NCBI GenBank assembly: GCA_022791495.1
Contig: JAAVZE010000090.1
Span: 1-39,652 of the forward strand
Origin: Eubacterium sp.
Lineage (GTDB): Bacteria; Bacillota; Clostridia; Lachnospirales; Lachnospiraceae
Length of the DNA stretch: 39,652 bases
Direction: 5' to 3'
Below, piece by piece: positions 421 to 13,732 of the stretch. The first letter of the stretch is position 1, and each line of letters begins with the position of its first letter. The position numbers and the translations under genes were made by a program. The notes under the pieces are model-generated. The model searched no databases. It was not told the origin of the DNA and saw only the letters and a program-made list of their open reading frames with translations.

Positions 421-1407
421 TCAGCTCTCATTGGTCGTTCCGCTCAGGAACTCCACATACTTACCGGTACCAATGGCCACTGCTGTCATTGGCTCCTCCG
501 CTGTCATGGTGGTGATACCTGTCTTGCTCTCGATCAGCTCTTCCAGGCCATACAAAAGGCTTCCTCCACCGGTCAGCACAATACCGCGGTCTGCGATGTC
601 TGCTGCCAGCTCCGGCGGTGTCTTCTCCAAAACACTGTGAACCGCTTCTACAATCTGCAGCGTCGTGTCCTTCAGTGCCTCTTCTGTCTCCTCGGAAGTG
701 ACTGTGATGGTCTTTGGCAGACCGGTCACCAGGTTTCGTCCACGGACATCCACTTCCTCCACTTCCGGTCTCGGAAATGCAGAACCAATGCGGATCTTTA
801 TGTCTTCAGCAGTTCTTTCACCGATCAGGAGGTTGTGTCTTTTTCTCATATATCTAACTATGGCATCATCAAAGTCATCCCCTGCGATCTTAATGGAGGT
901 ACTTACCACCGTCCCGCCCAGGGAGATCACTGCGATATCTGACGTTCCGCCCCCGATATCCACGATCATGTTTCCACAGGGTCTCGCGATATCAATCCCT
1001 GCACCTATCGCAGCAGCAATAGGCTCTTCGATAATCTTAACATCTCTGGCACCTGCCTGAAATGCCGCATCCTCTACGGCCTTTCTCTCCACCTCTGTGA
1101 CACCGCTGGGCACACATATACTGATCAGCGGCTTACGGAATCTTTGCTTGCCAACTGCCTTTTGAATAAAATATTTAAGCATCTTCTCCGTCACAGTATA
1201 GTCGGAGATGACTCCCTGTCTCAACGGACGGACCGCCACAATGTTTCCCGGTGTGCGGCCGAGCATCAGTCTCGCCTCTTCACCGATCGCCTTGATTCTG
1301 TTCGTATCTCTGTCAAATGCAACCACACTAGGCTCCTTCAGTACAACACCCTTGCCTTTCACGTATACAAGAATACTCGCTGTACCCAGATCTATTCCAA
1401 TGTCCAT
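421..1407 (-). CDS. mbl: MreB/Mbl-family rod-shape actin homologue
   Basis: 328 residues, the normal length for MreB/Mbl. The start ATG follows a GAAAGGAG ribosome site. Motifs seen: phosphate-1 loop DIGIDLGTAS at the N-terminus, phosphate-2 IVDIGGGTSDIAVISLGG near residue 150, and the adenosine motif GIVLTGGGSLLYGLEEL near residue 277. The family forms ATP-dependent filaments under the membrane that guide cell-wall synthesis in rod cells. The rod gene just downstream on the same strand matches the B. subtilis mbl-flhO context, which is why mbl is preferred over mreB; no mreC or mreD is adjacent. Confidence is high for the family, lower for the paralogue name. Confidence 0.88.
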   Translation of the reverse strand: MDIGIDLGTASILVYVKGKGVVLKEPSVVAFDRDTNRIKAIGEEARLMLGRTPGNIVAVRPLRQGVISDYTVTEKMLKYFIQKAVGKQRFRKPLISICVPSGVTEVERKAVEDAAFQAGARDVKIIEEPIAAAIGAGIDIARPCGNMIVDIGGGTSDIAVISLGGTVVSTSIKIAGDDFDDAIVRYMRKRHNLLIGERTAEDIKIRIGSAFPRPEVEEVDVRGRNLVTGLPKTITVTSEETEEALKDTTLQIVEAVHSVLEKTPPELAADIADRGIVLTGGGSLLYGLEELIESKTGITTMTAEEPMTAVAIGTGKYVEFLSGTTNES

Positions 1408-1602: not shown

Positions 1603-2976
1603 TTAATCCTCTTCTGCTAGAGCAGCCTGTATCATAAGAGCACACTCGATCCTTTTTTTCTGTAACTGGCAGCCGATCTCATAAGGTTTATTAATGTCCT
1701 GATGCATATTAAATGCATTTGCAGCACATCCGCCGCTGCAGTAAAACCTGGCAAAACAGTTCCGGCACTCCTCTTTGGCATACACATTGCAGAGTTTAAA
1801 CTCATCCCGGATCTCTGTATTTACAATCCCATCTTCCACATTTCCCAGAAGAAAATCCTCATTTCCCACAAACTGATGGCATGGGTACAGGTCTCCCCAG
1901 GGTGTAACTGCCAGGTATTCCGTCCCGGAACCACAGCCAGATAATCTCTTATAAACACAGGGACCTCCCGTGAGATCAATCATATAGTGAAAAAAGTGAA
2001 ATCCTCTGCCTTCCTTTTTTCTTTTGATCATTTCCTGGGCCAGTCTGTCATACCCCTCGCAGATCACCGGTATATCTTCTTCACGGATGGCATAGGGCTC
2101 CTCTGGTCCCGCCACCACCGGCTCCACTGAGATCTGTTCAAATCCCTGGTCCGCCAGATGCAGCACATCCTCCACAAAATCCAGATTGTAGTGGGTAAAT
2201 GTTCCCCGCACATAGTACTTCTGTTGACTGCGGCTTTCTGCCACCTTCTTAAATTTATCGAGGATCAGATCGTAACTGCCATCCCCATTTTTATTGGGAC
2301 GCATATAATCATGCACTTCTTTTCTGCCGTCGATACTAAGGACGATATTATCCATCTCCCGATTGGCGAATTCTATGATTTCATCATTCAGCAATACCCC
2401 ATTGGTGGTAAGTGTAAATCGGAAATGCTTGTCATATTCTTCCTCCAGACTCCGACCATATGCCACCAGCTGTCTGACTACCTCAAAATTCAATAATGGC
2501 TCACCGCCAAAAAAGTCCACTTCCAGGTTCCGTCTGCCGCCAGAATTCTCCACAAGAAAATCCAATGCCTTTTTTCCCACTTCAAAACTCATCAGAGAAC
2601 GGTCACCCTTGTACTCTCCCTCACCGGCAAAACAGTAACGGCAGGAAAGGTTACAGGCATGGGCAATGTGAAGACAAAGAGCCTTCACTACCGTCTGGCG
2701 CTGTTTAAAATCAATTACACCCTCTTTGTAAGTATCCTCTGTAAATAAGGTTCCCTCTTCTTTCAACTGCTCTAAATCATTAAATAATTCCCCCAGCTCT
2801 TCCTCTGTGATCCCTTCATCACTATACTCTTTGCAGATGATCTCCGTAATTTCTTTTTTTCCTTTTTCTTCATACATGCCGATCACATCATATGCCACAT
2901 CATCTACCACATGAACAGAGCCACTATTTACATCCAGAACTATATTATATCCATTATTTTTATATTGATGAATCAT
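1603..2976 (-). CDS. scfB: SCIFF peptide radical SAM/SPASM thioether maturase
   Basis: About 457 residues. An in-frame ATG at 3003 exists, but the internal ATG at 2976 (MIHQYKNNGYNIVLDVNSGS) begins as this family does and is preceded by GGGGAAGAAAG, so it is chosen. An N-terminal peptide-binding (RRE-like) region is followed by the radical SAM CxxxCxxC motif (CNLSCRYC, about residues 108-115), the FFGGEP strand, and a C-terminal SPASM region whose cysteines include CGSGTEYL, YPCHQF and CRNCFARFYCSGGC. Such enzymes bind a radical SAM 4Fe-4S cluster plus auxiliary clusters and form thioether bonds from cysteine to an acceptor residue in the SCIFF peptide. The precursor gene lies 124 nt upstream on the same strand, which fixes the identity. 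Confidence 0.93.
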   Translation of the reverse strand: MIHQYKNNGYNIVLDVNSGSVHVVDDVAYDVIGMYEEKGKKEITEIICKEYSDEGITEEELGELFNDLEQLKEEGTLFTEDTYKEGVIDFKQRQTVVKALCLHIAHACNLSCRYCFAGEGEYKGDRSLMSFEVGKKALDFLVENSGGRRNLEVDFFGGEPLLNFEVVRQLVAYGRSLEEEYDKHFRFTLTTNGVLLNDEIIEFANREMDNIVLSIDGRKEVHDYMRPNKNGDGSYDLILDKFKKVAESRSQQKYYVRGTFTHYNLDFVEDVLHLADQGFEQISVEPVVAGPEEPYAIREEDIPVICEGYDRLAQEMIKRKKEGRGFHFFHYMIDLTGGPCVYKRLSGCGSGTEYLAVTPWGDLYPCHQFVGNEDFLLGNVEDGIVNTEIRDEFKLCNVYAKEECRNCFARFYCSGGCAANAFNMHQDINKPYEIGCQLQKKRIECALMIQAALAEED

Positions 2977-3040
2977 TTTTCTTTCTTCCCCGCTATCTTC
3001 CATCTTTCAAAGCATATCCCAATCTCGCTAACGCAAGAAA

Positions 3041-3877: not shown

Positions 3878-4729
3878 TTGAGATATATAGATTTACACGT
3901 ACACTCCACCTGCTCAGACGGTACACTTACGCCGGAAGAACTGGTACTTCGGGGAATAAAAAATGATCTTGTGGCATTTGCCCTCACTGACCACGATACC
4001 GTAGACGGAGTCGCCAGGGCAATGCGCAAGGCGGAGGAACTGGACCAGCATATTCAGGTGATCCCGGGAGTAGAACTTTCCTGCCAGTATCCGGCTGCCT
4101 CTGACCAGGATGTAGAGATCCACATTCTGGGCTATAACATTGACCATACGAATCCTGCTCTGGTCTCCACCTTAAAAAAAGTAGCTGAAGAAAGGGACAA
4201 CCGCAACAAAAAAATGTGTGAAAATCTTCACAATGCCGGATATCCCATTACCTACCAGGAGCTGACAGAAAAATTTGGCGACATGATACTGACCAGAGCT
4301 CATTTCGCCAAACTATTATTAGAAAATGGTGGTGTTCCCTCTATGGACGCAGCCTTCAAGACCTGTCTTGCTATAGACAGCCCTTATTTTGTAAACCGTG
4401 AATATTTAACACCAGAAGGCGCCATTCAGCTCATTAAAGAAGCGGGCGGCATCCCTGTACTGGCACACCCCCTTCTATATAAGCTGTCCGTCAGCCAGAT
4501 CCGAAAGATGCTTGAAACACTCAAAACCTATGGCATCCGGGGAATCGAAGCCCTCTACTCACGAAATCATGGGACCGATGAGGCATTTGTGCGCAAGCTG
4601 GCAAAGGAATATGACCTTTTTATCACTGGTGGATCTGATTTTCACGGTGACAACAAACCGGATATCGAGATGGGCACTGGGACCGGAAATCTGAGGATAC
4701 CGGTCATGCTATTGGAGAATTTAAGATAG
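3878..4729 (+). CDS. PHP-domain phosphoesterase (YciV/TrpH, RNase AM-like)
   Basis: 283 residues starting at TTG with AAGGAGG 8 nt upstream. Metal-binding PHP motifs are visible: HVH at 7-9 in DLHVHSTCSDGT, TDHD at 37-40, PGVE near 64, an ILGY strand with a His before it, LAHP near 189 and GSDFHG near 252. This set is typical of the PHP family related to E. coli YciV, which includes 3'-phosphatases of nucleoside 3',5'-bisphosphates and a 5'-3' exoribonuclease acting on short RNAs. The exact substrate cannot be read from sequence. It is a single gene, convergent with thiE and overlapping its end by 9 nt. Confidence 0.85.
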   Translation: MRYIDLHVHSTCSDGTLTPEELVLRGIKNDLVAFALTDHDTVDGVARAMRKAEELDQHIQVIPGVELSCQYPAASDQDVEIHILGYNIDHTNPALVSTLKKVAEERDNRNKKMCENLHNAGYPITYQELTEKFGDMILTRAHFAKLLLENGGVPSMDAAFKTCLAIDSPYFVNREYLTPEGAIQLIKEAGGIPVLAHPLLYKLSVSQIRKMLETLKTYGIRGIEALYSRNHGTDEAFVRKLAKEYDLFITGGSDFHGDNKPDIEMGTGTGNLRIPVMLLENLR

Positions 4730-5389
4730 CCGGCCAGGCGGCTGCCTTTTTATCCCTTCTAGTTTACCCACCATTTGCTCCGCTGCCCCGGTGATGTCTT
4801 TTGCTCCGATCACAGCGGAAATAACCGCCACACCATCCACACCGGTCCCCTGGAGTTTTTCCACATTTCCATGGTTTACGCCGCCGATGGCCACCATCGG
4901 GATCTTTACAGCGTTTCTTATTTTAGTAAGCTCCTCAATGGATACATGATGGGTGTCTGCTTTGGTAGATGTGCCAAATACGTCTCCCACACCGATGTAA
5001 TCTGCACCATCTTTTTGCGCCTGAAGTGCCAGCTCCGCATTGTAGGCAGACACCCCGATGATCTTATCCTGACCGAGAAGTTCTCTCGCCGTCATAGCCG
5101 GAATATCTTTCTGGCCCAGATGAACCCCGTCTGCATCCACTGCCAGAGCAATATCAATCCGGTCGTTTATAATCAGCGGGATTTCATAGGCATCTGTCAC
5201 TTCTTTTACACTATGGGCAATCTCCAAAAAATCTCTGCCGGAACAGTCCTTTTCCCGCAGCTGAACAACCGTCGCTCCCCCTTTGATGGCAAGCTCCACT
5301 GCCTCTTCAATAGAATCTGTAGTCATAAGTTCTCTGTCTGTGCAGAGATAAAGAGTATAATCCACTCGTGGTTTCATATGCTGTGTCAC
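4721..5389 (-). CDS. thiE: Thiamine-phosphate synthase
   Basis: 222 residues, usual length for ThiE. It joins the HMP pyrimidine diphosphate and the thiazole phosphate to give thiamine monophosphate. TIM-barrel motifs are visible: VQLREKD (42-48), IINDRIDIALAVDADGVHLGQ with the diphosphate-binding ND, YIGVGDVFGTSTK, and the phosphate-binding AIGGVN plus GVAVISAV. The GTG start overlaps the stop of the upstream CBS gene by 4 nt (GTGA), implying translational coupling; a second in-frame ATG lies four codons on. No TPP riboswitch is seen at this gene, and it is the last gene of a long operon otherwise unrelated to thiamine. Confidence 0.92.
   Translation of the reverse strand: MTQHMKPRVDYTLYLCTDRELMTTDSIEEAVELAIKGGATVVQLREKDCSGRDFLEIAHSVKEVTDAYEIPLIINDRIDIALAVDADGVHLGQKDIPAMTARELLGQDKIIGVSAYNAELALQAQKDGADYIGVGDVFGTSTKADTHHVSIEELTKIRNAVKIPMVAIGGVNHGNVEKLQGTGVDGVAVISAVIGAKDITGAAEQMVGKLEGIKRQPPGRLS
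4728..4752 (+). terminator. Terminator of the PHP gene, inside the 3' end of thiE
   Basis: AGCCG (4728-4732), loop GCCAGG, CGGCT (4739-4743), then GCCTTTTTA. This is a short GC-rich stem with a T-run, beginning in the PHP stop codon and lying within the last codons of the convergent thiE. Confidence 0.55.
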
Positions 5390-5817
5390 TCCTTTTCCTC
5401 CACCTTTTTTTTCAATTCCGATATCCGGTCCCTAAAATGCTTAATGACGGACTGTCTGGTGATGATCCCCACAAACAGGCCGCGGTCGTCCACCACCGGA
5501 ACAAAGTTCTGATTAAGCACACGCTCAAGCAGATCCTCTACGGTGGCACTGACTTTCACCGGATGGTTCCAGTCTTTTCGCAAAATATCCTTAACCAACT
5601 CCTCATCCAGATGTTTCAGGTCACCTTCATTGTTGCGAAAAATCCCCCGCAAAAAATCTCCCTCATTGATGGTTCCTACATAGTACCCCTCATGGGAGAG
5701 CACCGGCGACGCTGTATAGCTGTGGCTGCGCATCTTTTCCAGGCCCTGTCTGATCGTATCGTCATCATATAAATAGGAAACTGATTTTTTCGGTTTTAGT
5801 AAAAAAAGTATATTCAT
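5386..5817 (-). CDS. CBS-domain pair protein
   Basis: 143 residues forming one Bateman module: CBS1 about 8-64 (SVSYLYDDDTIRQGLEKMRSH, then SHEGYYVGTINEGDFLRG) and CBS2 about 75-130 (PVKVSATVEDLLERVLNQNF, then VDDRGLFVGIITRQSVI). Stand-alone CBS pairs of this type often bind adenine nucleotides or c-di-AMP (as in CbpA/CbpB); which ligand is used here is not visible. It ends with a charged tail (RISELKKKVEEKE). It lies 4 nt downstream of the coiled-coil membrane gene and is coupled to thiE, so it belongs to the same transcript as the actin-fold gene cluster. Confidence 0.85.
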   Translation of the reverse strand: MNILFLLKPKKSVSYLYDDDTIRQGLEKMRSHSYTASPVLSHEGYYVGTINEGDFLRGIFRNNEGDLKHLDEELVKDILRKDWNHPVKVSATVEDLLERVLNQNFVPVVDDRGLFVGIITRQSVIKHFRDRISELKKKVEEKE

Positions 5818-5821
5818 ACAT

Positions 5822-7054
5822 TCATCCCTCCAAATCCCTGTCTTTCAACATATCTTCGATTTCCTGTGCGTACTCTGGCTTTTTATTTCGGATCCGTTCC
5901 AGTTCCTGGATAAAATCCTGCATAATTCCATTGTTATAATCGATCTGGGCCCGGAGCTTCTGACGCTGCTCATTGAGCTCATGCCGGACTTCAACCATCT
6001 CTCTCGGATCCACGATAGCATTTGCCCTGCCAAGCCACAGATCCCGGTCTTTGACACCGAGCTTATTCAGCTCCGCCAGAAGAATCTCATTTTTTTCGTT
6101 CAAAAGAAAGGCTTCTTCCCGTTGTCTTGCCCACTCCCGTTTTGCCTTGCGGTACTGGTCGTAAACAAATTCCAGTTCCGTCACATTCCGCACACGATAT
6201 TTGGTACACATATAATCTATGGTTCTTGTGTTGTTTACATACTTAATCCTGACCCGGTTTGAAAAAGAGATAGCGCGGTTGCATCTTCGCTCTGTGAGAA
6301 CCATATCTCTTCGGTTTTTTCCAGCCTCGATAACGATAATGAGCGTCACCACAAAGGCAAATGCAGCCGTGGCGATAAATGGCACACGTATATCGGTCTC
6401 AAACACCACCAGTATCGTCACGAGAAGGATTCCAAATAATGCCAGCATAAAGCCAAGCACCTTGCTTACCAGCTGCAGCGTACTCTGCTTCCGGATGATA
6501 TCCCTCTTATCCCTCAGCAGCATCCTTTTTTCCCCGTCCAGCTGCCGCATATCGTGTTTGATCTTGATCTGATAATCCTCATATTCCTTTAATTTTGAGA
6601 TATCATCCTCTACCTTAGGTTCAAAATTTTCCATGGCTGCCCTCTGGGCATCCGTAAATTTATAACGGCGTCCCTTTCGTTTTTCCCGTTCTGCTGTCAG
6701 CTCTACAATGGCAGACGCAATATCCTTCAACACCGCTTTTTCTTCTTCTAATGCCTGATCCATCAGCTGAATATCTTTCAGATAAGAAGTCACCTGTCCA
6801 TACTCCGCCTTGATTTCCCCGCACTGCCGTTTCGCTTCGCGGATTCCATCATATAATCTCTGAATATAATCCAGCCGGATCGACTTATTCGCCAGATCAA
6901 CTTTTTCTTTTTCCAGCTTTATCTGCTCTGGTATGGCTTCCAAGTCGTTCTCTACGCCTTCCGCCTCTGTACCGTTTTCCATTTCGGCTTCTGCCGCCGG
7001 CTGTTGACCTCCCTTTTCTTTTTTCTTACTGCGAAACCATCGCAATCCCATCAT
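5822..7054 (-). CDS. Coiled-coil membrane protein of the actin-fold cluster, function unknown
   Basis: 410 residues. The N-terminus is basic then acidic (RSKKKEKGG, then EAEMENGTEAEGVEND), followed by a long heptad-like helical region (about 40-190), two closely spaced membrane segments (VLGFMLALFGILLVTILVVF and VPFIATAAFAFVVTLIIVI, about 199-242), and a second charged coiled-coil to the C-terminus. There is no signal peptide, so both coiled coils probably face the cytoplasm around a membrane hairpin. The start overlaps the upstream gene by 29 nt. I recognise no named family. In context it is likely the membrane anchor or stalk of the complex formed with the neighbouring actin-fold protein; this is inference. 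Confidence 0.8.
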   Translation of the reverse strand: MMGLRWFRSKKKEKGGQQPAAEAEMENGTEAEGVENDLEAIPEQIKLEKEKVDLANKSIRLDYIQRLYDGIREAKRQCGEIKAEYGQVTSYLKDIQLMDQALEEEKAVLKDIASAIVELTAEREKRKGRRYKFTDAQRAAMENFEPKVEDDISKLKEYEDYQIKIKHDMRQLDGEKRMLLRDKRDIIRKQSTLQLVSKVLGFMLALFGILLVTILVVFETDIRVPFIATAAFAFVVTLIIVIEAGKNRRDMVLTERRCNRAISFSNRVRIKYVNNTRTIDYMCTKYRVRNVTELEFVYDQYRKAKREWARQREEAFLLNEKNEILLAELNKLGVKDRDLWLGRANAIVDPREMVEVRHELNEQRQKLRAQIDYNNGIMQDFIQELERIRNKKPEYAQEIEDMLKDRDLEG

Positions 7055-7829
7055 TTACACCCCCATCTGAATAAGCGGACCGAAGCTCATTTTTACAGCG
7101 GTTGATGAACTCATCCCCACCACCGTCATCCTTCCCCCCGGTTTGCGCATCGATATAATTTTGTCTTAATTGTTGTAATTCTTCTTCAGTCTTTCCAAAA
7201 GAACTACCCTCCTGTGCAAACTGCTCCTCCTGACCATTGAGCAGCAACGCGTACAAATACTGTTGAAGGGACTGTTCCTTATGATTTCTGGCATATGCCT
7301 CCTTGAATCCATTGGCAGCTTCCCGGAAGGAAGATACATGAAACAAAGCAATTGCCTGATTGTGGAGAAGATTCCCATACTCCTCCGTTGAAAAATGTTC
7401 TGCCATCTCTCCATAGAGAAGCTGTTTATACTCCTGCAGGCTCCTGCCATACTTGCCGGCACGAAGATATTGATCTGCCTTTATCTTGTTCTTCTCATGG
7501 GCCGGGAGATTTTCAATCTTCTTCATCACCGTTACCAGCTGCAGGATCTCCTTTTCTTTGTAATAATCACAGGAGCACATCAATGTAACTACCAGATCTT
7601 TGAGGTCGTTCTTTTTCTGAATCAGCACGCGCATTTTTTCTGCCAGTGCCTCCAGGTCTGCCTGTTCACTGAGCCATTCCACCAGCTTCTCGTCAAAAAA
7701 CTCTTCTGTTACGCTGTATATATGATGATACATATAATAACAGAGTTCCTCCAGCGAATACACCGGCATCTCTGAGATAGGAATAATATAGGGCTCCTTT
7801 GCCAGTGCTCCCTTGCACATAATAAACAT
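7026..7829 (-). CDS. All-helical TPR-like protein of the actin-fold cluster
   Basis: 267 residues, no signal peptide or membrane segment. After an N-terminal alpha-rich part (SLEELCYYMYHHIYSVTEEFFDE), residues about 115-215 contain helix-turn-helix pairs like tetratricopeptide repeats: KADQYLRAGKYGRSLQEYKQLL, GNLLHNQAIALFHVSSFREAANGFKEAYARN, and QSLQQYLYALLLNG. Such repeats usually bind partner proteins. It starts 15 nt after the actin-fold gene (AAGGAAG ribosome site) and overlaps the next gene, so it is made together with both. Family and function are unknown to me. Confidence 0.78.
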   Translation of the reverse strand: MFIMCKGALAKEPYIIPISEMPVYSLEELCYYMYHHIYSVTEEFFDEKLVEWLSEQADLEALAEKMRVLIQKKNDLKDLVVTLMCSCDYYKEKEILQLVTVMKKIENLPAHEKNKIKADQYLRAGKYGRSLQEYKQLLYGEMAEHFSTEEYGNLLHNQAIALFHVSSFREAANGFKEAYARNHKEQSLQQYLYALLLNGQEEQFAQEGSSFGKTEEELQQLRQNYIDAQTGGKDDGGGDEFINRCKNELRSAYSDGGVNDGIAMVSQ

Positions 7830-7844
7830 TTCAAATCGCTTCCT

Positions 7845-9056
7845 TTACTCAATGGTGATAGTCTTTTCCCAGATTCGGCAGGAGGATGGAAAAAAATCTC
7901 CAAATCCTTTGTCTCTGACTGTGACAATGCATTTATCCTTACCGGCAAATCGCAGCTGCAGACCGACCCTCGCCCTTCTATCTATCCTTCCAGGAATCCC
8001 CTCCATCGGGATACATTGTTTCATCTTTTCCCTGGTCCGCATGTTCTTCACATTCAGTTCCAGTTCCCTGTCCCCATCGGGAATCAGGTCAATGTCGTAT
8101 TCAATCTGATACCAGGGAGTTCCCGCCCTGACAAGGAGAATCTCCTGCGGCTTCCCATCGGCATAAACATTCATGGAAACATTGACATCCACCGTATCCT
8201 CATCCAGATACACAAACTCATCCAGCCTGCGTTCTTCAGACATTTCCCTGGCACAATAGCAGGCTCCGCTCACATACAGGTTATCTCCCTGAAACAGATG
8301 GCGTCCCACGCAAAGCTTCTTCATCACAGCTCTGGCAAAACCTCTTTCAAACCCGGTCCCCGTCATATAAAGAGTCGTGATGATCTTCCCGTGAATGGCG
8401 CCCTGAACCATCCCCTCAAAGATCGCATTCTTTTCCTCTTCGCTACTGTCCTTTTCCTGAAACATCGGAATATAGTCGCTGTAATCCCTCGCCTCTACGG
8501 TGGCTAACATCGGCTGCTTATAACGATCCGTCTCCATCTGAAGATACATCAGCTTATCCCTCGTATAGTCAAATACACCTACATGATTGGTCCATAACTC
8601 TTTCTTCTGGCTCAACACATAATAGATAAAGCTTTGACGACGGTCAATGACCATGGCGCGGTCCCGGTGAATCCCGATCTTTGACAATGCCTGGTAGATA
8701 ATTCCAATAAACCGATAATCCCGGTACTCTGTAGTGACCACCAGCTGCCGGATGGATTCATTAGGATATTTTTTCCGTGTCTTAGACAGTATTTTCCGAA
8801 AAAATGTGGCCAGGATGTTTACCGGATCCGTCTCTCTGTCCACCGCCATCACCGGCTCCTGGCGGAGGATCTTCACCAAAAATCCCTCTATATAATCTTT
8901 TGTTCCCGGAACCGCCACCCTGGTAGGATAATCAATTCCATTTTGTTCTCCTCCAGACTTCAATATCTCCGGTTCCTGAAGCATCGGTCCCAGAACTGCG
9001 ATCTGGGAAATATCATTTCTAATATCCAAGCCTACATACAGCCTTCGCTGGCTCAT
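7845..9056 (-). CDS. Actin/Hsp70-fold protein with degenerate nucleotide site (DUF5716-like)
   Basis: 403 residues. The first half follows the actin/Hsp70 (ASKHA) plan: phosphate-1-like YVGLDIRNDISQIAVL (7-22, D11), a connect-1-like stretch FIYYVLSQKKEL (143-154), phosphate-2-like GVFDYTRDKLMYLQM (160-174), adenosine-type loop LYMTGTGFERG (229-239) and LYVSGACYCA (260-269). The usual DxGGGT of phosphate-2 is replaced by DYTRD, so nucleotide may bind without fast hydrolysis. The last ~100 residues form a separate, beta-rich region. I believe this matches the uncharacterised DUF5716 family of Lachnospiraceae; I cannot run the search. It sits in the centre of a five-gene cluster with scaffold-like and membrane partners. 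Confidence 0.78.
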   Translation of the reverse strand: MSQRRLYVGLDIRNDISQIAVLGPMLQEPEILKSGGEQNGIDYPTRVAVPGTKDYIEGFLVKILRQEPVMAVDRETDPVNILATFFRKILSKTRKKYPNESIRQLVVTTEYRDYRFIGIIYQALSKIGIHRDRAMVIDRRQSFIYYVLSQKKELWTNHVGVFDYTRDKLMYLQMETDRYKQPMLATVEARDYSDYIPMFQEKDSSEEEKNAIFEGMVQGAIHGKIITTLYMTGTGFERGFARAVMKKLCVGRHLFQGDNLYVSGACYCAREMSEERRLDEFVYLDEDTVDVNVSMNVYADGKPQEILLVRAGTPWYQIEYDIDLIPDGDRELELNVKNMRTREKMKQCIPMEGIPGRIDRRARVGLQLRFAGKDKCIVTVRDKGFGDFFPSSCRIWEKTITIE

Positions 9057-9111
9057 AGCAAATCATACCTTTCAAATCATACTGACTGCTGCTTTTATGG
9101 CAGCATCCGCC

Positions 9112-12100
9112 TTAAAGCGGAACAAACAGCTTTCCAGATATCTCCTGTATAGAACGGTACTTCTGGACCAGCTGGCGCAGCACTTCTTCTTCCCCATTCT
9201 CCTGCGCCCGGATCATTTGGTTCACCAGCTCATAAAAAGCCGCTGCCTCTTGCTCCGGATCTGCTTTCTCCCCTGCTGCTTCCTCATCTGCCCGGATCAC
9301 TCCCTGCCGGACGGGGCAGGGCTCTCTTCCGGCAAAAATTTGATAATGAACGGTTTCTCCCCGGAATAATAAGGTCTCATGTACATAGATATCCTCGAAT
9401 ACCGGCTTCATCTGACAGATCTCTTTTTCTCCATCCTCATGAGAAAGTTCAATATAGATATCTTTACTGCGGGAATAATACAGCTGGATGATACTGCCAT
9501 GAAGTACCGCAAAAGGAACCTCCACTTTACCGATAAATCCCTTCATAAAGGAAAATATCCTGCCAGTAGAAACATAATGGGACAGATGGTACTCAATGTA
9601 CTCCCTCTCCGCCTCTGTATACTCATCCTTTTGGGCATAATAGCGCAGAGAAGCCAGTATCATGCTCTGATTCTCCTCGGAAAGCCCCTCTCTGCGGATC
9701 TTCTCCCAGATCCTCTCCGGCATCTGCCATCTCTCCGTCAGATACCCATAAGAAATACCGGCCAAAAAAGCTTTTACAAGGATCCGGTTCGCCCCATACT
9801 CATAATAATCAACGAAAATATCCGCATATTTTTCCAGATTATCTTCCACGAACAAAGCCTGACCCAGAAGCCGTTCCGTCCCACCGTCAGATATGTCTGC
9901 CCCGTTCTTCCAGGCCGTCTGATATATGTCATAAAGCACAGAAATGCTCCCCATATAAAATTCTACCAAATAGGAAAGAATCTCATTGTTTTTTATCCCT
10001 CTCTGGTATAAAAAACTGCATAGTTTCATATAATACGGCTCAAAATGTTCCCGGTTCTCCTCCAGCTTCCAGGTGATTAGAAGCAAAAGAAGCTTCATGC
10101 TGCAACTGGTGATCTCATACTTTTTCAATACGCTCAGCGCCTCATCCTTCCATTCGTGCTGAATCATCGTCTGCAGGATTCCCGCACGCCTCTCCTGGGT
10201 CAGATAGCGGAAATCAATACCGCGGATCACCTCTTCCAGCAAAAGCTCCTCGCCAATGGCTTTATAATAATCATAAAGAATAAGCAGGGTTTTCTGCCGG
10301 TATTCCACTCCAGGCACCTGACGGCGTATCATAGTGTGCAAAAGAATGGCATCCTTGGCCACGATGTCCTTCTTTTTCAATATCTCTGAAAATAAATACA
10401 ACAAAAGTACCGGATTCTCGGAACCATTTTCGTAACAGCCCTGTGCCATATGTTCCAGATTTAATATCTTTGTCAGTGTGTAAGACACCGCATCTCCATG
10501 ATAATACCCGTTCTTATCTACAAAATATAATTTATAATTTAGTGTCCCGATGCTGATATCTGCCTCTCCATTGACCAGATTATAAACCATTGCCCCGCCG
10601 CCCTCATCATGGACGACTGCCACCCGCTCCATATTCCTGTTACCGCAGTGAAGCCGGTGGGCAAACAAAACCCCCGGCAGCTCTCTGGCGATCCGGTCTT
10701 TACAACTGTCCACACTGAGAAATTCTTCATATAACACCGCCAGTTCCGGACTGATGTGATGATCATACAGCTGCCGGAGTGTATATTCCTGCATCGCCTC
10801 ACGATAACTCTGATAATATTCTGGATACCTTTCCTGGTTCCTGACAATACTTGCGTAAAATCTTGCCCGGACGGAATCTCTAAGATGATTCTCATACTGA
10901 AAATAGGATGTGACCACTGGCAGGGCTTCATCATAGCAGGCTTTGTCCAACGTGTACATATAATATTCAAAGAGCTCCGTCAGGCGCAGTCTTCTCTCCA
11001 CCCCAAGGCGAAACCATTTAAAATATCTGGCCTCCAGTTTTTCCGTCCGGATCAGAAGGGCACAAATACTTTGAAGAGTATCCTCACTGCCATATACCTC
11101 ATAACAGCCCTGCAGCACAGACAGGAGCGCAGGGGTGCATTTCTTCTGGCGCGCTGCCAAAAAAGATATGGCAATCCCCAGATCCTCAGTAATTAAATCG
11201 TGCCTTATCCCAAACCTGAGAGCTCCTATTGTACTGCTGTCCAATTTCTTCAGCAGCTCCGGCTCCTGCAAAAACAGTAACATTCGATATAAATGCAGAT
11301 AAGGGCTAACTGCCCCCTCCTTCCAAAGCAGATCCAGCTCCTCCATCAACCCCTGGGAACTTCCCTCAAAATAACCCAGCCGCTCCAACATGACGAGAAG
11401 ACGCCAGTGATGACAGCCGTTGTCATAATACTCCCTGATCTTCCGGCACAACATGCTTTTTTCCTCAAGGGACCCCAGGGCAAGACACCGTATATACATA
11501 GTGGTCAGATAACAGTACACTTTTTCCATGCTGTCTCCCAAAGCCGGCGCCGGCATCCCGGTCACCGCATTGACAAAGGCCGCCATTTTCCTCTCTTCCC
11601 TGGTTAAGACCGCCATGTAGCCCCCCAGGAGAACATCATTTCCCTTACCCATACTGCCGATCATTTCCCGGTTCTCCACCAGCACCCGAAGCCACACATC
11701 TTTCAGACTGCTGTTCATCATGTACTGGATATGATATTTTGCCAGCAGCCCCGTCAGCTTGTCCAGACTACGCTTTTTCGCCCTTTCCTTCCTTCCCTGC
11801 ACCCCGTGAAGTCTCACCCTGATCTCCAGTTTCTGATACACATTTTCCAGAAGGATCGAACACCGGTGAATTCCCTCCGGAACCTCCGAAGCCTGAATAT
11901 GAAAAGCAAGTACTGCCTGATTCTGCAGAAAATCCTTATTGCTGAGACTGTTTTTCTGCAATGAGATGTAAGAGCTTTCCGTGCTCACCCGGATCCCCAC
12001 CATTCCCCAGCTGTCCAGTGCGATCAGGATCTCTCCATCGATATCTTCTTCCCTGACTTCAAAAGAAATCTGTCTTTTATTCGCTGCAAACCGTACCGGT

Positions 12101-12660
12101 TTTTTATCGCCGTGGGCCACTAAAAACTCCTCCAGCGCCTGTTTCTTTGGGTTTTTCAATGTTAAGTTTTGATATAATCTTTTTTCCCCCCACTCCTTCA
12201 GATAAATCTTTTTAAATTTATCATGATAAAAGATTGTGACTGCCTCCACAAAGTTTTCCCTGGCAAGCTCCACAAATTCTTCATAGGAATGAATCTCCCC
12301 GTCAGAACTGCGGAGACAGCGCGGTAATACCCTGACCTCATATGGCAGCATATGTTCCCCACAGTCTGTCACGATACAGAGATCTCCTGTCAAGATCTCC
12401 CCCGCTTTTTTATTACCCGCATATACCTTCGCTGTAATTTCATTTTCCTTCCCATCAAAAACCGGCAGAAATTCTATATTAAAATGATCCACTGCTCCGA
12501 ATCCTTTGATCTTCGTCCCGGCAGAATTGGACACCGTAAAGGAGGAAGCGGCTTCCCCTCCCTCAACTACTTCCAGCTTGAGACAGTCTATGGAACAGAC
12601 AATCTCAGGCTGCTCATATGTAAACCTGCCCTGAGCCAGTGACATGACTTTCTCTCTCAT
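9112..12660 (-). CDS. Giant scaffold-like protein of the actin-fold cluster (DUF5717-like)
   Basis: About 1182 residues. A TTG at 12696 opens the frame, but the ATG at 12660 (MREKVMSLAQGRFTYEQ) has GGGAG 8 nt upstream and is chosen. Residues about 10-290 look like two beta-sandwich domains (KLEVVEGGEAASSFTVSN, then FEVREEDIDGEILIALDSWGMVGIRV, ending in a stretch about ligating HGVQ). The bulk (about 300-1030) is a continuous array of amphipathic helices rich in Leu and Tyr, resembling TPR/HEAT solenoids. The end (about 1040-1140) returns to beta structure, then a Glu-rich helix. There is no signal peptide or membrane segment. I believe it belongs to the DUF5717 family. It probably scaffolds the complex; function unknown. 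Confidence 0.78.
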   Translation of the reverse strand: MREKVMSLAQGRFTYEQPEIVCSIDCLKLEVVEGGEAASSFTVSNSAGTKIKGFGAVDHFNIEFLPVFDGKENEITAKVYAGNKKAGEILTGDLCIVTDCGEHMLPYEVRVLPRCLRSSDGEIHSYEEFVELARENFVEAVTIFYHDKFKKIYLKEWGEKRLYQNLTLKNPKKQALEEFLVAHGDKKPVRFAANKRQISFEVREEDIDGEILIALDSWGMVGIRVSTESSYISLQKNSLSNKDFLQNQAVLAFHIQASEVPEGIHRCSILLENVYQKLEIRVRLHGVQGRKERAKKRSLDKLTGLLAKYHIQYMMNSSLKDVWLRVLVENREMIGSMGKGNDVLLGGYMAVLTREERKMAAFVNAVTGMPAPALGDSMEKVYCYLTTMYIRCLALGSLEEKSMLCRKIREYYDNGCHHWRLLVMLERLGYFEGSSQGLMEELDLLWKEGAVSPYLHLYRMLLFLQEPELLKKLDSSTIGALRFGIRHDLITEDLGIAISFLAARQKKCTPALLSVLQGCYEVYGSEDTLQSICALLIRTEKLEARYFKWFRLGVERRLRLTELFEYYMYTLDKACYDEALPVVTSYFQYENHLRDSVRARFYASIVRNQERYPEYYQSYREAMQEYTLRQLYDHHISPELAVLYEEFLSVDSCKDRIARELPGVLFAHRLHCGNRNMERVAVVHDEGGGAMVYNLVNGEADISIGTLNYKLYFVDKNGYYHGDAVSYTLTKILNLEHMAQGCYENGSENPVLLLYLFSEILKKKDIVAKDAILLHTMIRRQVPGVEYRQKTLLILYDYYKAIGEELLLEEVIRGIDFRYLTQERRAGILQTMIQHEWKDEALSVLKKYEITSCSMKLLLLLITWKLEENREHFEPYYMKLCSFLYQRGIKNNEILSYLVEFYMGSISVLYDIYQTAWKNGADISDGGTERLLGQALFVEDNLEKYADIFVDYYEYGANRILVKAFLAGISYGYLTERWQMPERIWEKIRREGLSEENQSMILASLRYYAQKDEYTEAEREYIEYHLSHYVSTGRIFSFMKGFIGKVEVPFAVLHGSIIQLYYSRSKDIYIELSHEDGEKEICQMKPVFEDIYVHETLLFRGETVHYQIFAGREPCPVRQGVIRADEEAAGEKADPEQEAAAFYELVNQMIRAQENGEEEVLRQLVQKYRSIQEISGKLFVPL

Positions 12661-12676
12661 CGCAATTTCTCCCTGG

Positions 12677-13654
12677 TTATGATGGTGTTTGCTCAATGCG
12701 TTGGATCAGTGCCTCGATGAAACGCATCTCCATATTGCGGCATCCCGTCAGGGAATAACTCCCCACCGCCTTCATCGCCTCCATGGCGATCTGCAGAGCT
12801 GCTCCTTTATCTTTTTTGACAAAATACAGCCAATAGGCGAAAACTCTCTTTATATTCGCCTCCTCATTGCCTTCCATTTTTGCCAGAAAAGGTTTTCCAT
12901 AAAAATGTGCCTTTCCCTCGTTGGGCTGAATGATTACATTGTAAAATACAAATTCACATAAACTGGATATCTCTCCACGGGACCATTTATCCGGCACATG
13001 ATCTTCCATCTCATCCATCACTTTCCGAAGGCTGTCATAATCACCCTGATCCAGAAAATGATAATACAGCATCAGAAGATACCTTTTGTAGACAGTCAGA
13101 TCTGTCAGCTTTCCCGTGTAAGCTACCGTCTGGACTTCCAACTCCGCCGGCGCCCTGCCTTCCCGGATCGCCGCATAGCACCGCTCGTACTCACGCCTCA
13201 TAATCCCAGCCGCCCCGCTGCCTGCTTTCTGCTTCTGATTGAATGCCAGAAGCACCATCAGCACAATGGTATATCCCACCATAACAATGGCCATCGAAAC
13301 CGTAAAGACATTTTTCGGCATAAGCTTTGTCCCCCAGATCTGGAAGCAGACTGTCTCCGTAAAGAACAATGCCACCGCCATGGAAAATGCCCCGTAGATC
13401 AGATTTCTCATACGGCTATCTTTCAGGTCTGTCATACGGCAGCTTATGTAGGGCTGTGGATCACACAGCCCGATAGAAAATCCTTTGTTTTTCTTACGGA
13501 TCTTTAGCATAAAAAAAATAAAGTGATCAAACTTAAAGTGTAACAATAACCCCCCCACGATCTTGCCAATAGCGGCAGCGATTCCTATGATGATAAAACC
13601 TGCCAGTGCACCGCCTGCACCCATAAAAAACTGTGCTGCCCCGTCCATACACAT
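12677..13654 (-). CDS. Three-TM membrane protein with C-terminal helical domain, first gene of the actin-fold cluster
   Basis: About 325 residues from the ATG at 13654 (MCMDGAAQFFMGAGG), which has AAAGG upstream; the frame is open further upstream across the promoter, so longer starts are rejected. Membrane segments: ALAGFIIIGIAAAIGKIVGGLLL (about 15-37), LIYGAFSMAVALFFTETVCF (about 85-104) and VFTVSMAIVMVGYTIVLMVLLAF (about 114-136). The rest is an alpha-helical cytoplasmic domain with TPR-like pairs (KRYLLMLYYHFLDQGDYDSL). It ends 16 nt before the giant scaffold gene. No named family recognised; likely membrane partner of the scaffold. Confidence 0.78.
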   Translation of the reverse strand: MCMDGAAQFFMGAGGALAGFIIIGIAAAIGKIVGGLLLHFKFDHFIFFMLKIRKKNKGFSIGLCDPQPYISCRMTDLKDSRMRNLIYGAFSMAVALFFTETVCFQIWGTKLMPKNVFTVSMAIVMVGYTIVLMVLLAFNQKQKAGSGAAGIMRREYERCYAAIREGRAPAELEVQTVAYTGKLTDLTVYKRYLLMLYYHFLDQGDYDSLRKVMDEMEDHVPDKWSRGEISSLCEFVFYNVIIQPNEGKAHFYGKPFLAKMEGNEEANIKRVFAYWLYFVKKDKGAALQIAMEAMKAVGSYSLTGCRNMEMRFIEALIQRIEQTPS

Positions 13655-13703: not shown

Positions 13704-13732
13704 ATTGTATATAAATACATCAGTTTTGTAAA
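13704..13732 (-). promoter_or_regulatory. Promoter of the seven-gene actin-fold/CBS/thiE operon
   Basis: Minus-strand -35 TTTACA (13727-13732), 17 bp, -10 TACAAT (13704-13709), 50 nt upstream of the first start codon. The following genes are spaced by at most about 55 nt or overlap, and I see no strong terminator between them down to 4721. Confidence 0.6.

Follow-up and report, generated by a model that had tools for sequence, protein, structure and literature searches.

The DUF5716–DUF5717 gene cluster of Lachnospiraceae, a possible remnant of a dedicated Hsp70 chaperone machine

A minus-strand locus encoding DUF5717 and DUF5716 proteins

The human and animal gut counts Lachnospiraceae among its commonest bacteria. 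Two proteins conserved in this family carry only the labels DUF5716 and DUF5717. Here, we describe the gene cluster that encodes both proteins in contig JAAVZE010000090.1 of Eubacterium sp. (assembly GCA_022791495.1), the whole 39,652 nt stretch of which was analysed and is referred to as the window. ORF (open reading frame) calling on the window identified five adjacent ORFs, all on the minus strand and spanning positions 13654 to 5822, which we designate A to E:

12677..13654, minus strand: gene A, local membrane gene, 325 aa, 2–3 transmembrane (TM) segments (ORF; restricted to the species group of the window)
9112..12660, minus strand: gene B, DUF5717 protein, 1182 aa (ORF and Pfam)
7845..9056, minus strand: gene C, DUF5716 protein, 403 aa, reads as a degenerate lidless Hsp70 (Pfam, model, Foldseek, VIA, motifs and tree)
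7026..7829, minus strand: gene D, TPR-like protein, 267 aa, with a conserved N-terminal domain (VYSLEELCYYMYHH...) (homologue and family profile)
5822..7054, minus strand: gene E, coiled-coil/two-TM hairpin/coiled-coil protein, 410 aa (ORF, hydropathy and family alignment)

Gene B may start at the ATG at 12660 (1182 aa) or at a TTG at 12696 that is also open (1194 aa), and gene E overlaps gene D by 29 nt. The original prediction had given the names DUF5716 and DUF5717 to two members of the cluster, and a Pfam search of all five proteins proved these names right: protein B matched DUF5717_N (1.9e-192) and DUF5717 (2.3e-52), and protein C matched DUF5716_C (PF18980; 4e-98). The DUF5716 and DUF5717 scores (328.5, 641.8 and 178.5 bits) exceed the gathering cut-offs (34.7, 25 and 25). 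Proteins A, D and E had no Pfam match above cut-off.

Relatives of the cluster were found through C, and the best 80 of 493 were retained as named loci. These loci were picked by the pattern NLY[SVC][KS]GA[CY][YM], so the invariance of this motif in alignment A6 arises by construction. The gene order B-C-D-E was present in 58 of the 80 loci; the other 22 carried B-C-D (13 loci), B-C (4) or other parts (5), some being explained by contig ends or by ORFs that the caller missed. ORF calling missed C in L070, L103 and L116, where other searches detected it. Among 98 loci with a long B, 95 had C next to it, 92 had D and 76 had E. The intergenic gaps were short and recurring, with medians of 17, 13 and 14 nt (94, 92 and 76 loci, excluding gene pairs at least 3000 nt apart and genes shorter than 201 aa). 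Homologues of gene A were detected by phmmer in just three of the 80 named loci (L071–L073), the C proteins of which are 91–92% identical to that of the window, and no homologue was found in 38 other loci. From the gene-order counts and the restriction of A to L071–L073, we conclude that B-C-D, in most loci joined by E, makes up the conserved unit and that A is local. The five genes had been expected to travel together as one constant cluster; all five ORFs are present in the window and the expectation holds for B-C-D and usually for E, but A does not belong to the unit and E went undetected in 6 of the 33 sampled Lachnospiraceae.

The distribution of the cluster was surveyed in 246 genomes drawn from the order of the window, the family of which was taken as Lachnospiraceae from its named relatives. 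DUF5716 was present in 117 genomes and the mixed DUF5717 profile matched in 123; 115 genomes had both, 2 had DUF5716 without DUF5717, 8 had DUF5717 without DUF5716 and 121 had neither. Both were present in 33 of 33 sampled Lachnospiraceae, a figure that relies on how the genomes are listed, those without a match being arranged by kinship. In draws across the phylum, which contain few genomes of the order outside Lachnospiraceae, DUF5716 was detected in just the 4 of 299 genomes that belong to the family of the window, the mixed DUF5717 profile found the same 4 of 249 plus one marginal match (9.3e-4), and the E profile found 4 plus one marginal match (8e-5). A search of viral contigs returned no relative of the cluster. 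In one locus (L088) the contig that bears the cluster is labelled Anaerolineaceae, and it may be a Lachnospiraceae contig that was binned wrongly.

Protein C resembles a lidless Hsp70 with a lost catalytic site

The AlphaFold model of protein C (predicted local distance difference test, pLDDT, 91.4; predicted template modelling score, pTM, 0.88) contains the nucleotide-binding fold of the actin/Hsp70 superfamily, as originally predicted for the 403 aa protein, and the match is of the Hsp70 type over its full length. Foldseek matched the model to DnaK at 1.1e-16, and residues 5–403 align structurally with residues 2–504 of DnaK in VIA (the end falling at up to 504–507). The Hsp70 and Hsp110 matches include a sandwich resembling the beta part of the substrate-binding domain (SBD-beta) after the nucleotide-binding domain (NBD); the chain stops after this sandwich in the model, and the alpha-helical lid is not present. 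The 50 Foldseek rows listed, of 351 at E ≤0.001, and the 50 VIA rows listed read as Hsp70/Hsp110 chains, though VIA was restricted to Foldseek's own matches and the lack of other folds there is not evidence of absence. Ssz1 and Sse1/Hsp110 ranked equal among the VIA matches. At the profile level, the mixed C profile A3 aligned with DnaK over positions 10–410 (7.9e-13), and the Lachnospiraceae-only profile A6 matched just the N-terminal part of DnaK (1.5e-4).

These matches bear on the function originally proposed for the cluster, a membrane-tethered filament or switch in which DUF5716 polymerises on a membrane scaffold. Protein C does share the actin/Hsp70 superfamily core, a coiled-coil membrane protein is encoded in the operon of most species, and MreB also matches the joint profile. 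However, among the matches listed, the closest superfamily match of C was not an actin-like filament protein without an SBD (MreB, FtsA or ParM): both its best matches and those over its whole length are to Hsp70s, with SBD-beta among the matched parts, the C orthologues of two sister-family loci (L032 and L034, below) are scored as HSP70 by Pfam, and C has neither an intact phosphate-2 motif nor the stretch matching subdomain IIB of the NBD. We consider a filament very unlikely. Protein C was also considered as a stand-in for FtsA, which was not indicated: of the genomes tested, 14 of 20 with the cluster and 5 of 6 without it have a strong, long FtsA-like match (5e-24 or better, none reaching the family cut-off), and the best match of the other 7 genomes was at the level of MreB.

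The sites in protein C that correspond to the Hsp70 catalytic motifs and residues (DxGTT, Lys70, DxGGGT, Glu171 and GG(S/T)) read VGLDIRNDIS, GFLVKIL, FDYTRDKL, RRQSFIY and LYMTGTGFE, and the catalytic motifs are not found. The first reading of the locus had noted Asp11 and the adenosine-loop GTG as present and DxGGGT as absent, and this is the case, FDYTRDKL occupying the latter site. Across 20 Lachnospiraceae C sequences, the phosphate-1 Thr-Thr, the catalytic Lys, the phosphate-2 GGGT and the connect-motif Glu-Pro are gone; the phosphate-1 Asp is retained in 18 of the 20 and the first adenosine Gly in all 20.

The loss extends beyond the motifs. The distance from phosphate-2 to the adenosine loop is 59–77 residues in Lachnospiraceae C (20 sequences), compared with 133–151 in C of the outgroup (12 sequences) and 142 in DnaK. 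About 70 residues are lacking, and the absent columns correspond to about residues 190–280 of DnaK, in the numbering of the window's genome, which we take to be subdomain IIB of the NBD. The C orthologue of two genomes (G301 and G417) still has a stretch of IIB length. GrpE opens the nucleotide cleft through tilting of subdomain IIB, according to two reviews (PMC4753570 and PMC8215388).

An expanded cluster with intact-looking Hsp70s in sister families

The cluster takes an expanded form in sister families, which was examined in 12 loci, some of them partial. Its members are a DUF5717 protein, three Hsp70s that retain their motifs (designated H1, H2 and H3, one of them carrying a VWA domain), a protein with a GrpE domain (M), the orthologue of DUF5716 and a TPR protein. 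The genes of L032 run B, H1, M, C orthologue, H2, H3 and D. Pfam assigned H1 (5.1e-76), H2 (7.4e-63, with a weak DUF5716_C match at 7.5e-10) and H3 (7498–9573; 4.5e-96) of this locus to HSP70, and H3 carries a C-terminal VWA domain (1.9e-10), as does H3 of L033 (7549–9723). M is a helical protein with a C-terminal GrpE domain (3e-13 in L032), which was found in 5 of 5 loci tested. The L032 C orthologue matched both DUF5716_C (1.5e-26) and HSP70 (1.4e-17), as did that of L034; the orthologues of L033 (below cut-off) and L035 matched DUF5716_C and not HSP70. The 35 H1, H2 and H3 sequences compared, among which L038_7787, an H3, sits with the H2 rows, retain the catalytic motifs except for gaps in one fragment.

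In a tree of 57 sequences, which is unrooted, drew a long-branch warning from the tool and labels L038_7787 as H2, the 14 Lachnospiraceae C sequences form one clade (100/100) that adjoins C of L035 and then of L033 (100/97 and 100/99), and a 100/100 branch separates all C sequences from H1, H2, H3 and DnaK. Taken together, the full-length Hsp70 match, the absence of the IIB stretch and the placement of orthologues beside motif-intact Hsp70s and a GrpE-domain protein lead us to read C as a degenerate chaperone: a lidless Hsp70 and, by its best matches, not an actin-like filament protein.

The GrpE-domain protein, counted in the 246 genomes with the non-GrpE part of M as profile, was detected in 76, every one of which has B or C: 76 of 92 such genomes outside Lachnospiraceae and 0 of 33 inside. 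In Lachnospiraceae, absence of the IIB stretch coincides with absence of the GrpE-domain protein. An HSP70 search of 26 genomes found that 8 of 12 Lachnospiraceae hold just DnaK and MreB, and that the sister-family genomes carry three extra Hsp70s at the cluster, those of G302 being spread over contigs and H3 of G301 being split by frame breaks. The simplest reading is that the three Hsp70s were lost in Lachnospiraceae rather than gained elsewhere, as judged from gene order and the unrooted tree.

Two further explanations were considered. DUF5716 could be an Hsp110-like helper, serving as an exchange factor or co-chaperone of the house DnaK, which is improbable given that C lacks the stretch matching IIB and that the sister-family set has its own GrpE-domain protein. 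Alternatively, the cluster could be a biological-conflict (defence-like) system of the Hsp70-GrpE type known beside GAP1-N2 GTPases. The Hsp70 and GrpE theme of those neighbourhoods (PMC7159879) recurs here together with a VWA domain, and CoCoNuT, a predicted defence system, also contains a degenerate Hsp70, CnuD (PMC11090510). The L032 Hsp70-VWA and TPR proteins also gave weak PADLOC matches (best 4e-7, and 4e-6), which look like shared domains. Nevertheless, the seven L032 cluster proteins include no GTPase, tubulin or effector by Pfam, the five window proteins have no PADLOC match to 0.1 and no PHROGs match to 0.01, and the occurrence of the cluster in all 33 sampled Lachnospiraceae leaves no patchiness there. 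A defence function is unlikely on this evidence.

The proteins encoded beside DUF5716

The original description of the 1182 aa protein B as a beta-then-solenoid protein was borne out by its model (pLDDT 86), although the relative placing of the domains is unsure because pTM is only 0.58. The modelled layout is:

about 17–288: two putative Ig-like domains of the PapD/ASH type, followed by an alpha-solenoid
about 666–731: small beta domain, followed by a second solenoid
C-terminus: beta domain and helices

The assignment of protein D draws on its homologue in L032, which matches TPR_2 (5e-26, Pfam), and on the D family profile A8, which matches TPR proteins in PDB and includes six longer sister-family sequences with more TPR repeats. 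Matches of protein D to HetE-N and GapS6a (E 0.09 and 0.04) were taken as chance.

Protein E has TM segments at about 199 and 224 in a hydropathy scan, its coiled coil was judged by eye, and the family alignment shows a conserved KIKYVNN..LDY..KY motif after the TM segments. This uncharacterized two-TM family is present in 146 of the 246 genomes of the order: 27 of 33 Lachnospiraceae, 75 of the 92 other genomes that have B or C, and 44 of the 121 that have neither. It lies away from the cluster in several other genomes, and in 10 of 15 E neighbourhoods inspected by eye (L158–L172; 11 cluster-less and 4 cluster-bearing genomes) it stands shortly before a valS-like gene. Because of this broader distribution and valS-side location, E looks like an older neighbour that was drawn into the operon. 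In genome G532 (L049, 6261–9113, minus strand), E continues in frame into a glutamyl-tRNA synthetase-like protein (tRNA-synt_1c, 1e-103), either a fusion or an assembly error.

Comparison of gene A with its homologues in L071–L073 gave dN/dS of about 0.1, indicating purifying selection. The hydropathy scan flagged 2 TM segments in protein A, one fewer than originally predicted. Signal peptides of the window proteins were judged by eye.

A chaperone machine that may have lost its motors

The original prediction was largely sound and its fold call was good; its filament or switch was not supported, since C is Hsp70-like including SBD-beta and the membrane proteins lie outside the constant core. 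As C of Lachnospiraceae is a worn-down Hsp70 and the cluster is fuller in related families, where the Hsp70s look intact, it may be a dedicated chaperone machine that lost its motors. We think it probable, with some reserve, that the cluster is a stripped-down descendant of a dedicated Hsp70 machine in which C is a fixed, ATP-independent client-binding or docking module on B. The analysis supports descent of C from Hsp70, the loss of its motifs and of a subdomain, the co-occurrence and shared order of the genes, and the absence of a GrpE-domain partner.

In this model, the ancestral state would have been as in the sister families, where three Hsp70s with intact motifs stand alongside a GrpE-domain protein, a TPR protein and the DUF5717 giant. 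The motor parts would have gone in Lachnospiraceae, leaving the paralogue DUF5716 with a broken catalytic site and without the stretch matching the subdomain that the exchange factor moves. Protein C would have no ATP cycle, would presumably not hydrolyse ATP, and would bind peptides, acting as a fixed client-binding or docking module through its SBD-beta sandwich without a lid. Protein B would be the scaffold that holds C, D a putative adaptor, and E, where present (in most sampled species), would tether the assembly to the membrane; B, C, D and E would form one complex. The more far-reaching proposal, that a core chaperone machine of Lachnospiraceae shed its ATPases, turning from a multi-Hsp70/GrpE/TPR assembly on an ASH-solenoid giant into one lidless, exchange-incompetent Hsp70 that serves as a passive, ATP-independent subunit, is offered tentatively, as somewhat less than an even chance.

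Several observations weigh against this descent from a chaperone machine. A nucleotide or other ligand may still bind C, because Asp11 and the adenosine-loop glycine stay conserved. The GrpE-domain protein was not found in 16 of the 92 outgroup genomes with B or C (incomplete genomes included), Pfam detected no J-domain among the seven cluster proteins of L032, and loss of the Hsp70s over gain is the simplest reading rather than proof, because the tree is unrooted and has long branches. Four of the 12 Lachnospiraceae (G222, G346, G396 and G528) have further Hsp70-like matches, one of which, on contig C12 of G346, is distant from DnaK and from H1–H3 alike. Membrane protein E is not constant, being missed in 6 of 33 Lachnospiraceae, and a family containing HtpG is found near the cluster in 20 of 98 loci only, with related genomes sharing neighbourhoods by descent. 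Finally, the CIRCE heat-shock operator was not above shuffles in 104 loci, in a scan that is without a positive control because the fetched dnaK stretches also gave no clear CIRCE.

The other extra Hsp70-like genes were considered as displaced copies of H1–H3, and this was rejected: those of G222, G528 and contig C8 of G346 are nearest DnaK, and those of G396 are fragments of one copy of DnaK that lie where contigs end. The G528 gene (L179, 2087–3604) encodes 505 aa and lies about 10 kb upstream of B within a same-strand gene run.

A degenerate-Hsp70 remnant of a larger chaperone machine remains, on balance, the reading that we favour as likely, on the evidence of sequence, structure, tree and gene content. 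Should the proposed shedding of ATPases be true, the cluster would represent a natural experiment in the turning of an ATP-driven machine into a passive scaffold. The series from sister families, through G301 and G417 with the IIB-length stretch kept, to Lachnospiraceae without it provides intermediates for studying how a chaperone may lose its nucleotide cycle, and the Hsp70 link makes a cluster known by DUF labels a testable chaperone question.

Flanking genes and regulation

Two further features lie at the ends of the cluster:

13704..13732, minus strand: promoter-like site TTTACA-17-TACAAT upstream of gene A (consensus scan; weak evidence)
4721..5817, minus strand: downstream genes, a CBS-domain protein (5386–5817) and thiE (4721–5389), the first 4 nt after E and the two overlapping

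Transcription from one promoter, as originally proposed, is plausible only: the site is present, but 12 promoter-like sites were found compared with 14.2 in shuffles, and are thus not above chance. The CBS-domain gene and thiE possibly share the transcript of the cluster and are not counted as members; inspection by eye of the protein starts found neither a CBS-type gene nor thiE directly after the cluster in the relatives' loci inspected. The CBS-domain protein resembles CbpB, which binds c-di-AMP, with a score of 73 bits that falls short of the cut-off (125).

An MreB gene (421–1407, minus strand; PF06723, 2.3e-142) lies a few kilobases downstream of the cluster, and a second MreB-sized match to the joint profile, assigned to MreB by length, is located downstream in L071–L073, L082 and L084 as well. 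A SCIFF-peptide radical SAM maturase is encoded at 1603–3003 on the minus strand (TIGR03974, 1.7e-238, above cut-off). Another contig of the window's genome (L001, G000:C128:31310-32608) carries a gene of the JetA family (PF18982, 315.6 bits); JetA is a Wadjet component. The HtpG-containing family (Hsp90; identity checked in L051, 2931–4979) lies within nine ORFs of B in the 20 of 98 loci; where its place was listed (17 loci), it was always upstream on the same strand, 4 times directly so.

Many members of the order sporulate, and a gene upstream of the cluster in the window matches YtaF, below cut-off, so that a part in the sporulation machinery was weighed. The distribution of Spo0A led us to reject this link, which is contradicted at this sampling and extremely improbable: among the 33 cluster-bearing Lachnospiraceae, 7 have a full Spo0A, in 6 a single frame covers just its C-terminal part, and in 20 no match rises above those of other response regulators, whilst Spo0A was found in 5 of 6 cluster-less genomes tested.

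Comparison with known systems

Literature searches (DUF5716/DUF5717, Hsp70-like proteins in Lachnospiraceae, Hsp70-GrpE-VWA-TPR, core genes and DnaK paralogues) found no description of this cluster, nor was one present in the portion consulted of PMC11019930, on DnaK paralogues. Proteins C and B of the window are clear members of Pfam DUF5716_C and DUF5717; the Pfam descriptions shown give no function, and the link of DUF5716 to Hsp70 is made here. Protein C shares the NBD and beta substrate-binding fold with Hsp70/DnaK (PF00012), and its ancestry is indicated by profile, tree and structure. It differs in having no lid, no IIB stretch and no catalytic motifs, and in sitting in an operon with DUF5717.

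Ssz1 and Sse1/Hsp110 differ from C in being eukaryotic, in having Zuo1 and Hsp70 as partners and in keeping a whole NBD. Ssz1, in the fungal ribosome-associated complex, is termed a non-canonical Hsp70, and ATPase-deficient Sse1 mutants still rescue, an example of an Hsp70 relative that can work without hydrolysis (PMC4753570). CnuD of CoCoNuT likewise has a degenerate Hsp70-like NBD and SBD with predicted poor ATP hydrolysis, but, unlike this cluster, is tied to McrB/McrC homologues and predicted RNA-targeting defence (PMC11090510).

In ~14% of GAP1-N2 neighbourhoods, Kaur et al. 2020 (PMC7159879) describe HSP70 and GrpE together with a protein that joins FNIII to DnaJ or TPR, and a subset has a second HSP70 without the peptide-binding domain; these systems are GTPase-centred and viewed as conflict systems. 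No GAP1 GTPase was found among the seven L032 cluster proteins (Pfam, E ≤0.1), the other expanded loci having been scanned in part. The cluster described here differs in having four Hsp70 paralogues, one with VWA, and in being present in all sampled genomes of one family. With Hsp70 and GrpE, a truncated second Hsp70 in a subset and a beta-repeat protein joined to TPR or DnaJ, the GAP1-N2 Hsp70-GrpE variant is the nearest published theme that we found.

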